Shown: positions 39,864 to 42,317 of the stretch, piece after piece
Numbering within the stretch: the first letter of the stretch is position 1
How the letters are laid out: the number at the start of each line of letters is the position of its first letter
Assembly (NCBI GenBank): GCA_003695675.1
Contig: RFIA01000168.1
Span: 1 to 42,548 of the forward strand
DNA from: Chloroflexota bacterium
GTDB taxonomy: Bacteria; Chloroflexota; Anaerolineae; Aggregatilineales; Phototrophicaceae
Direction of reading: 5' to 3'
DNA length: 42,548 nt
Program-made: the position numbers and the translations under genes
The notes under the pieces: model-generated
Seen by the model: the letters and a program-made list of their open reading frames with translations, nothing else
The model's database searches: none
Told to the model about the DNA's origin: nothing

Positions 39864-41339
39864 TCAGAGCACTTCCACCAACAATCCGAACATCCCGGAC
39901 AGCGGCCCACTGGGGCTGAACATCCCGTTGTTGACGCGGAACAGATACGTCCCAGTCGCGGGCAATGTGACTTCATACGTGGCGGTTGCCGGAATACCGC
40001 CGTTCATCCCGACGATGAAGCTGCTATCGCCACCACCGCCCATGCCCATGTCAAAGGCTGGTTCAAAGCCCGGCATACCATTGCCCGGCCCCTGAACATT
40101 CAGACCGGGAGCGTAGTTGTTGTTCACACTGCGCAAAGTGATACGAATCGTTTGCCCTTCTACACCGTCAAAGCGGAAGACTTTTTCAAAGTTTTGATCG
40201 CCCCCGACCGTATCTGTGATTTCGATGCCCGGTTGCAAAAAAGCGGTCTGCGAAGGTGATATGGTAAATGTGTATTCGCTCACACCGCTTACAACAGGGC
40301 CTTCAACCGAAATGCGACGCACAATTGCGAGGTGCTGCCCCCCCTCGAAAATTTGCACCGGGTCAACGGTGAATTGGCCGGGCGTATCGGTGAACGGTGT
40401 GGCTGCACCGGTGATGCTGAAACCGTCTGGCCCGTAAAGTACCACTTCAAAGGCTTGTGACCCGACCGTCTCGGCGCCGGTCATCCGTAACAGGTCGCTT
40501 GCCGTGGCGTTGAATGCGTAATATGCCGACGGATTCTGGTCATCGATGACGCCGCTAACCGTCTCGCCGAGTTGAAGCGGTTGGATGGTGGGTTGACTGA
40601 CAATGAAGGACAAGCGCACAGAGTCAGTTTCGGGGGCGCCGAATTGGTCAGTCGATTGCCGCCGAATGTTGATGAGGTAGCGTCCACTCTGATTGATGAT
40701 GATGGGTTCAACTGTGAACTGCGTCATTTCGCCGAATGTGCCGCCGCCATTAATGTTCATGCCCTGCGGGTCGCGCACTTCTATGAAGAAGTCGGCATCG
40801 CCCGCAATTTTGCTGGCCGCGATGCGCAATACATCACCAACTGAGTCGGCATCAAGCGCGAAAGCCACCGACGACTCGGCATCAGTCAGATCAACGGTAA
40901 TGCGTTCATCAAGCGAAACGACATTCAACTTTGTCCGCATCAGACGCAGCTCATACGGGCCGGTGCTTCCTTGTGGGCCGACAGGCGGACAGCAGCGCGT
41001 TGCTTCGATGGTGTAAACGCCGTCTGCGGGCAATGTGAACGGGCCGAGCAAGGAGTTGAGGTTGCCCCCGCTATCATCGTCGCGGAAGATAACGTTGCCG
41101 TTTGCATCAAGCAGATTGAGATAACTGTCGAGTCCTTGCTGTGTGGCGGTCATGCTGATGCTGATGACATCACCGGCGGTGCCTTGAAATTGATAGCGTA
41201 CAGCCGGGTTGTCGTTCGTGATTTCACCGGTGACGACCTGATCAAAAGTGATCGTTGTCTCTTGTGCAAAAGCGATGATGGATATACTCATCAACACTAG
41301 GCTGATGAGAATGATTGTTATGATCTGTTGTTTCGACAT
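39864..41339 (-). CDS. Exported pre-peptidase C-terminal (PPC)-domain repeat protein
   Basis: This 491-aa protein has a signal peptide at about residues 1-25 (IITIILISLVLMSISIIAFA). The mature part is four beta-sandwich units of PPC type, each starting near a VTGEI/VSGVI/DTVGG strand. Unit 1 is the clearest (VRYQFQGTAGDVISISMTAT ... GPFTLPADGVYTIEATR) and unit 4 ends LPATGTYLFRVNN. Unit 1 has an adjacent Cys pair (TRCCPPVG) and unit 4 a Gly/Met-rich loop (DMGMGGGGD). PPC modules usually accompany secreted proteases, but no catalytic domain is present, so a binding or structural cell-surface role is likely. AAGGAAAG precedes the ATG by six bases. Confidence 0.85.
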   Translation of the reverse strand: MSKQQIITIILISLVLMSISIIAFAQETTITFDQVVTGEITNDNPAVRYQFQGTAGDVISISMTATQQGLDSYLNLLDANGNVIFRDDDSGGNLNSLLGPFTLPADGVYTIEATRCCPPVGPQGSTGPYELRLMRTKLNVVSLDERITVDLTDAESSVAFALDADSVGDVLRIAASKIAGDADFFIEVRDPQGMNINGGGTFGEMTQFTVEPIIINQSGRYLINIRRQSTDQFGAPETDSVRLSFIVSQPTIQPLQLGETVSGVIDDQNPSAYYAFNATASDLLRMTGAETVGSQAFEVVLYGPDGFSITGAATPFTDTPGQFTVDPVQIFEGGQHLAIVRRISVEGPVVSGVSEYTFTISPSQTAFLQPGIEITDTVGGDQNFEKVFRFDGVEGQTIRITLRSVNNNYAPGLNVQGPGNGMPGFEPAFDMGMGGGGDSSFIVGMNGGIPATATYEVTLPATGTYLFRVNNGMFSPSGPLSGMFGLLVEVL

Positions 41340-41418: not shown

Positions 41419-41446
41419 ATCATATTCGGATTTTGTGCGTTGTAAA
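41419..41446 (-). promoter_or_regulatory. Promoter of the PPC-protein gene
   Basis: On the minus strand TTTACA (41441-41446) and TATGAT (41419-41424) are 16 bases apart. The predicted start is near 41412, leaving a leader of about 70 bases. Confidence 0.45.
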
Positions 41447-41482: not shown

Positions 41483-41519
41483 AAAAAAAATAAAACCACG
41501 ACCCAATGGCGGGTCGCGG
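41483..41519 (-). terminator. Rho-independent terminator (minus strand, no upstream protein gene)
   Basis: On the minus strand CCGCGACCC (41511-41519) pairs with GGGTCGTGG (41496-41504, one G-T wobble) around a 6-base loop, followed by TTTTATTTTTTTT. It points away from the epimerase gene and lies upstream of the PPC gene, with no protein gene to terminate. Confidence 0.85.
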
Positions 41520-41567
41520 TCTCATTTGCATCCTTAAGAGCAACTTGCTCGGATGCCCCCCTTCTCA
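41483..41567 (-). ncRNA. Candidate small RNA of about 85 nt (or leader with attenuator)
   Basis: A promoter-like pair TTGCCA/TATACT precedes a short structured stretch that ends at the strong intrinsic terminator. The 5' part can fold as GCATCC (41551-41556) with GGATGC (41528-41533), containing an inner GAGC-AAGTT-GCTC hairpin; then come a short single strand and the terminator hairpin. I match it to no RNA family I know. Because the PPC gene seems to have its own promoter downstream, a free-standing small RNA is favoured over an attenuator, but both are open. Confidence 0.5.
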
Positions 41568-41573
41568 TAACAT

Positions 41574-41603
41574 AGTATAAAGGATAAATTAAGGATTTGG
41601 CAA
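41574..41603 (-). promoter_or_regulatory. Promoter of the candidate small RNA
   Basis: On the minus strand TTGCCA (41598-41603) and TATACT (41574-41579) are separated by 18 bases; predicted start near 41567. Confidence 0.5.
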
Positions 41604-41653
41604 TGGGAATAAGATAGCAGCTTCCATAATGATAGTTTGGCACAGCCGATTGA

Positions 41654-41700
41654 CACCGCAGACGCCGAAGAAATCTTGGCGGTCTTTGTGGCTTGGCGAT
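41654..41700. repeat. Degenerate dispersed repeat (CACCGCAGACGCCGAAGAAA)
   Basis: It begins ACCGCAGACGC, like the copies at 7119 and 17664, and continues into GGCGGTCTTTGTGGCTTGGC. The -35 box proposed for the epimerase gene lies in its right end. Confidence 0.4.
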
Positions 41701-41721
41701 TTAACGCCTTTTCATTACAAT
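41693..41721 (+). promoter_or_regulatory. Candidate promoter of the epimerase gene
   Basis: TTGGCG (41693-41698) and TACAAT (41716-41721) are 17 bases apart; predicted start near 41728, 32 bases before the ATG. Confidence 0.4.
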
Positions 41722-41759
41722 CGGCGATATTCACTTCAATATCAAAGAGAGTATAGCGC

Positions 41760-42317
41760 ATGAGTCAACAGCCGCCGTCCCCTGTGCAGCCGTTAGAAAC
41801 TATCGCCGATGTGTACTATGTACCATTCAAATCTTTCGCCGACGAACGGGGCCGCTTTGCCGAAATCTTTCGCCGCGAGTGGTTTCCACAAGTGAGTTGG
41901 GAACGAATTCAGAGCAATCGTTCCGACAGCGTGGCCGGGGTCTTGCGTGGTGTCCATTATCACCATCATCAAATCGATTATTGGACAGTCGCGGCTGGCA
42001 CGATTCGGGTCGCGCTAGTCGATATGCGCCCGGCATCCCCGACGCATCGCGTCGCGACAACGATTGACATCGGGCCGGAGAACAATATCGGCCTGTTCAT
42101 TCCGGTGGGGGTTGCACATGGCTTCCTCGCGCTGACCGATTGTACACTGATTTACGTCGTCAACAATTATTATGATGGCGGCGCAGATGAACAAGGCATC
42201 GCATGGAACGACCCGGAACTCGGCATTGAGTGGGGACTCGAACGCGAACCAATACTCTCGGAACGCGACCGCAATAATCCCCTCCTGCGTGACATCCCGC
42301 CGAACAACATGCCCTAA
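41760..42317 (+). CDS. RmlC/RfbC-like NDP-sugar 3,5-epimerase-family protein
   Basis: This 185-aa cupin-fold protein carries DERGRFAEIFRREWFP, QSNRSDSVAGVLRGVHYH, VALVDMRPASPTHR, IPVGVAHGFLAL and YDGGADEQGIAWNDPELGIEW, the ordered motifs of dTDP-4-dehydrorhamnose 3,5-epimerases. The catalytic His is His66 (LRGVHYH) and the likely general-acid Tyr is Tyr132. The QGKLVRV segment with its conserved Lys is replaced by HQIDYWTV, so the Lys is missing; this matches a variant subfamily of unclear substrate. No rmlA/B/D gene is nearby, so I give no gene symbol. The ATG at 41760 has a weak AGAGAG ribosome site. Confidence 0.85.
   Translation: MSQQPPSPVQPLETIADVYYVPFKSFADERGRFAEIFRREWFPQVSWERIQSNRSDSVAGVLRGVHYHHHQIDYWTVAAGTIRVALVDMRPASPTHRVATTIDIGPENNIGLFIPVGVAHGFLALTDCTLIYVVNNYYDGGADEQGIAWNDPELGIEWGLEREPILSERDRNNPLLRDIPPNNMP

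Follow-up and report, generated by a model that had tools for sequence, protein, structure and literature searches.

The window, by which we mean the whole stretch of 42,548 nucleotides that was analysed, is part of contig C253 of a genome of 421 contigs and 4.7 Mb. Within it, a gap of 420 bp separates two divergent genes, one on the minus strand for a protein with a bacterial pre-peptidase C-terminal (PPC) domain and one of the rfbC family on the plus strand. The candidate unit lies inside this gap, and the features of the locus are as follows.

39864-41339, minus strand: PPC gene, encoding a PPC domain protein of 491 amino acids (flanking gene)
41419-41446, minus strand: promoter-like site TTTACA-16-TATGAT of the PPC gene, downstream of the terminator; 0.7% of shuffles as good
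41483-41568, minus strand: predicted short transcript of about 84-86 nt, placed from promoter, fold and U run
41488-41527, with a U run (eight U) to 41483, minus strand: intrinsic terminator stem-loop of 17 pairs, z = -7.45
41528-41556, minus strand: 5' nested hairpin of 11 pairs, GCATCC/GGATGC with inner GAGCA/TGCTC, -12.8 kcal/mol
41574-41603, minus strand: sigma-70-type promoter-like site TTGCCA-18-TATACT from a consensus scan; 3.6% of shuffles as good
41760-42317, plus strand: rfbC-family gene, dTDP-4-dehydrorhamnose 3,5-epimerase-like, divergent from the PPC gene (flanking gene)

The terminator is the most prominent of these elements. On its own it folds at -25.8 kcal/mol, a value that none of 200 shuffles reached, and the 87-nt stretch that comprises hairpin and terminator folds at -40.5 kcal/mol (z = -5.92). 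The 5' hairpin, laid out on the minus strand as GCATCC-GAGCA...TGCTC-TTAA-GGATGC, is present where the preliminary description of this DNA had placed it, though it is weak and modestly better than chance: its z score is -2.41, it was matched by 3 of 200 shuffles (53 of 2000 in a larger run), and 5.3% of the 6540 39-nt windows across the window are equally stable.

The small promoter (TTGCCA at 41603-41598, an 18-nt spacer, TATACT at 41579-41574) agrees with the consensus at 10 of 12 positions. It is the sole minus-strand site of this quality in the 233 nt from rfbC to the terminator and lies about 46 nt upstream of the terminator stem. Sites of at least 10/12 occurred on the minus strand in 3.6% of 5000 dinucleotide shuffles of that stretch, while a wider regional scan found four promoter sites with 4.0 expected, i.e., no excess. 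A consensus match does not amount to proof, and we regard the site as a moderately supported candidate. With the start placed 6-8 nt past the -10 box and the end in the U run, the predicted RNA has 84-86 nt, in line with the 85-nt transcript proposed earlier; strand and position of the promoter likewise proved correct.

The terminator ends 149 nt before the PPC gene, with the PPC promoter in between. A -10-like motif TA[TC][AGT]AT is present at -130 to -20 in nine of 12 PPC genes, the window's included, compared to 2.5 expected from shuffles. Moreover, the window's gene and four of its 11 orthologues, two of which (L027 and L028) are near-identical sister sequences, have TATGAT itself at -77 to -86. 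The earlier suggestion that the PPC gene has a promoter-like site of its own is thus supported by these sequence comparisons.

It had also been claimed that no protein gene precedes the terminator. This holds, with the caveat of a 75-aa open reading frame (ORF; 41534-41761, minus strand) whose stop lies 7 nt ahead of the terminator. This frame has no Pfam match, and a search of 60 related genomes gave no convincing relative (best E 0.0145). Its GC periodicity of 0.39/0.43/0.45 is not coding-like, compared to 0.57/0.44/0.63 for the PPC gene. The same gap carries, at 41670-41716, a copy of a dispersed intergenic repeat of the CTTGGCGGTCTTTGTGGCTTGGCG type, with 14 further matches in the genome at E ≤ 1, around nine of them with E < 0.01. 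The candidate unit itself matches only its own sequence and two chance sites in a DNA search of the genome, which rules out a repeat or mobile element as its identity. Rfam gave no match in the whole window at gathering score and nothing credible in the gap at E ≤ 10, where the best minus-strand match was rnk_pseudo (14.7 bits with 55 required; E 7).

Comparison with related bacteria

The relatives compared belong to other genera of the family or order, none to the same genus, so that conservation of a younger age is outside their reach. Among 11 near full-length or long PPC relatives, none has a comparable element upstream of the gene. A same-strand terminator within 450 nt upstream is absent in ten of them, and the eleventh (L032) has a weaker one (-10.8 kcal/mol) around 440 nt upstream, by tRNA-like sequences. 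Such tRNA-like sequences were seen by eye just upstream of PPC in four relatives (L031-L034), pointing away from the gene. The 29 rfbC loci neither contain a comparable element nor a terminator on either strand within up to 450 nt upstream. As rfbC is found in 0/11 PPC loci and PPC in 0/29 rfbC loci, the junction is particular to this lineage.

Broader searches gave the same picture. No homologue was found by DNA search in 100 relatives; 42 foreign genomes have matches at E ≤ 1 (best 0.00355), all of them short (16-37 bp) and at chance level. A scan for the PPC protein in a collection of 84,980 species returned no confirmed relative. A covariance model, R1, was made from one sequence entered twice and knows solely the folded window sequence. 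In 101 genomes it matched five besides our own at E ≤ 1, and in 154 genomes of the order none in the corresponding place; five foreign genomes of the 154 have a match at E ≤ 0.1, compared to a chance expectation of about 15. The hairpin pattern gave 67 scattered matches in the 84,980-species collection (around 30 expected by a rough estimate); after rescoring with R1, a single locus (L164) had a match at E ≤ 1, two weak ones in fact (E 0.13 and 0.45). Among the rfbC loci, R1 weakly matched L097 (1282-1360, 16.4 bits, E 0.08), on the same strand as rfbC and not the opposite one, and L098 (2146-2228, E 0.78).

The best foreign match of R1, in genome G048 (33.6 bits, E 5.9e-6), scores like the true homologues in the control described below. 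It begins 9 nt past the stop codon of a same-strand 377-aa ORF that contains CxxCH haem motifs, and no promoter-like site lies near it. It was rejected as a homologue by this context, in which it looks like a gene-end terminator; strictly speaking, an origin shared with the window's stem-loop is still conceivable. The case suggests that R1 can be matched by convergence.

As a positive control, a model of the hisS leader of the same genome (R3) was run by the same method in the same 100 relatives. Seven of its ten best foreign matches lie directly upstream of hisS, and matches at E ≤ 0.1 occur in ten of the 29 hisS loci from other genomes. An element with the age and constraint of the hisS leader should therefore have been seen. 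The preliminary description had itself named missing conservation of the stems as evidence against its proposal, and by covariance-model search and in the homologous loci no conservation of the stems was found in relatives outside the genus. A search of the literature on Chloroflexi small RNAs and start-site maps yielded nothing specific.

Terminators and leader peptides elsewhere in the genome

A survey of 563,605 bases of the same genome (the window and 60 other stretches) with a simple terminator search and a crude ORF caller yielded 20 terminators of at most -14 kcal/mol after a same-strand gene, eight orphans, five inside ORFs and one at a contig end. The window's terminator shares the lowest energy of the survey with one other, which bears out the earlier statement that it is strong. 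Before correction of caller errors, orphans thus make up eight of the 28 strong intergenic terminators. One (L201) lies downstream of two tRNA genes, and for another (L078) the sequence itself suggests a preceding gene that the caller missed. Several others are located in gene leaders, namely of argC-like (L219), recX-like (L082) and sulfite-reductase-like (L203) genes. These leader terminators lie 5, 17 and 41 nt from the respective ORF, and a further terminator of -13.5 kcal/mol (L210) lies 26 nt from hisS; the spacing in the window, with 149 nt and a promoter in between, is unlike that of these sampled cases. The recX-like case (L082 5453-5482, G000:C325, minus strand; -19.6 kcal/mol) was followed with a covariance model of its own (R2), whose best foreign match had an E of 0.028, i.e., no conservation was found. 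An orphan terminator is consequently no rarity in this genome, and leader attenuators have to be taken seriously here as an alternative to small RNA genes.

Some of these leaders contain short frames rich in His, Arg or Cys. Ahead of hisS (L210 2042-2128, G000:C114; hisS loci L255-L284), a short frame with ...MLETRINHHP is followed by the terminator, and a terminator is present in 17 of 30 hisS leaders, our own included. A His-His pair in any frame at -150 to -50 also occurs in 17 of the 30, and His-His-His in nine; in 300 mononucleotide shuffles, the His-His count averaged 3.1 and reached 9 at most. Because Ser-Ser (23) and Arg-Arg (18) pairs in any frame are commoner in these leaders, the His-His count is meaningful solely against its own shuffle. 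An Rfam scan of seven of the 30 loci gave no match. A conserved histidine leader-peptide attenuator before hisS, kept across much of the family, is probable. Histidine leader peptides have been described before hisS-family genes of bacilli (PMC2965389) and, in three Firmicutes lineages, for histidine genes (PMC9413887), and our literature search retrieved no report of a hisS leader-peptide attenuator for the present clade.

A Cys-rich short frame (..HLCCMCCCMPAK..) with a terminator precedes the nitrite/sulfite reductase gene of L203 (1380-1672, G000:C107), as well as those of L248 and L250. Across 13 sulfite-reductase-like leaders, from which the partial match L254 was left out, the combination of terminator and Cys-rich frame is found in three (L241, L248 and L250) and the Cys motif in four. 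Polycysteine attenuators occur in mycobacteria, and the L203-type leader resembles them. In L219 (17331-17512, G000:C243, minus strand), an RRRRR leader frame and a strong terminator immediately precede the gene for an argC-like semialdehyde dehydrogenase, and a TTGACG-17-TACACT site is located upstream; L219 is likely an arginine leader-peptide attenuator.

Interpretation of the candidate unit

We consider a short, self-contained transcription unit that is particular to this lineage to be the best explanation, with a probability of about 0.5. From the TTGCCA-18-TATACT promoter, RNA polymerase would initiate on the minus strand at around position 41567, make an RNA of about 85 nt and stop at the very strong terminator near 41483. 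The RNA would fold in sequence, the 5' hairpin before the terminator. The latter would keep transcription out of the PPC gene, which would start from its own promoter at 41446-41419. That transcription reaches the terminator is suggested by the perfect stem followed by eight U; that the small promoter is active and the RNA accumulates is our inference.

The most serious rival holds that the promoter match is due to chance and that the stem-loop is either a relict of a lost minus-strand gene or an insulator of PPC against stray or antisense transcription from the rfbC side. Though this is the less likely account, the lineage-specific junction of PPC and rfbC fits it, as do the frequency of orphan terminators in the genome, the 75-aa ORF without coding character that runs up to 41534 and the repeat copy in the same gap. 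Conversely, the perfect 17-pair stem and the U run look maintained rather than decaying, and a suitably placed promoter with 10/12 agreement arises in 3.6% of shuffles. Attenuation of PPC, by which the small promoter would be a distal PPC promoter whose transcripts mostly end early with regulated readthrough into the gene, is disfavoured and appears rather unlikely. The terminator does lie upstream of PPC on the same strand, as in the premature terminators and attenuators surveyed by Naville and Gautheret (2010; PMC2965389), and leader terminators do occur in the same genome, for instance ahead of hisS-, argC- and sulfite-reductase-like genes, where short ORFs rich in His, Arg and Cys accompany them. 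Yet the PPC gene has its own promoter-like site past the terminator, and the survey of Naville and Gautheret regards linkage of element and gene across strains as the chief indication, short of experiment, of a cis element; with no linkage to PPC in the 11 orthologues, of which ten lack a same-strand terminator within the upstream 450 nt and L032 has only its weaker, distant one, the main argument for such an element is gone. The same survey gives averages of -16.5 kcal/mol for 5' terminators and -20.2 kcal/mol for 3' ones, so a stem as stable as the window's is untypical of the former. The unit also differs from these attenuators in that neither an antiterminator nor a leader peptide is visible: on reading the sequence, no regulatory codon run precedes the stem, and when the 3' arm is barred from pairing, the best fold reaches -18.4 compared to -40.5 kcal/mol. 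Beyond the 5' hairpin, that fold gains only around five pairs, between the RNA's initial G run and the terminator's 5' arm, which is too little for a switch.

Two further readings invoke translation. An ATG at 41568-41566, at most 2 nt away from the inferred start of the RNA, opens a 36-codon ORF to 41458; in the first reading, the unit serves to express this ORF or a shorter one contained in the RNA. We deem such a small protein gene very improbable, since the 36-codon ORF crosses the terminator and ends past it, the enclosing 61-aa frame has weak periodicity (0.47/0.39/0.47) and no Pfam match, and an open frame of such length is estimated to arise by chance about one time in five. Marginally less credible still is translation-coupled antitermination on a leaderless message, for which pyrBI-type control is the comparison system. 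A ribosome on the 36-codon frame, which spans both hairpins and exits past the U run, would block folding of the terminator and permit readthrough into PPC, while an untranslated message would yield the 85-nt RNA. This would resemble pyrBI-type control, with the differences that the ORF would be leaderless and the gene one for a PPC-domain protein.

What the short transcription unit would produce is perhaps a small RNA of recent origin, perhaps a mere terminated by-product. Intergenic small RNA genes of bacteria commonly show the order of promoter, short structured RNA and strong terminator, with no ORF of note and a next gene that has its own promoter, and the predicted unit, with its candidate promoter, is alike in all of this. 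It differs from them in that no conservation and no Rfam match were found and in that it is known from its sequence alone. The RNAs derived from 5' untranslated regions by premature termination in E. coli (PMC7815308) are likewise short and terminated ahead of a gene, and the window's RNA could similarly act as a sponge or small RNA; those were mapped experimentally, whereas ours is predicted. According to the figures taken from PMC2965389, 2.2% of 5' terminators map to annotated small RNAs, so that a small RNA, too, has a low prior probability. Of the earlier proposal of a candidate small RNA, the anatomy, the lack of an upstream protein gene and the PPC promoter stand; a functional small RNA, with no conservation of the stems found in the relatives compared, is unsupported. 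Such an identity is possible on the anatomy, and action in trans would be putative. Since the searches of related bacteria yielded nothing like it, the unit probably represents an ordinary short transcript or a punctuation mark specific to its lineage, rather than a known regulator.

By itself, the unit therefore matters little and adds one more unproven candidate to the short transcripts of bacteria. A more general caution follows from the survey, in which the gene-less terminators that could be explained are a tRNA end, a gene-caller error and likely leader-peptide attenuators. The hisS leader that served as positive control is of independent interest.
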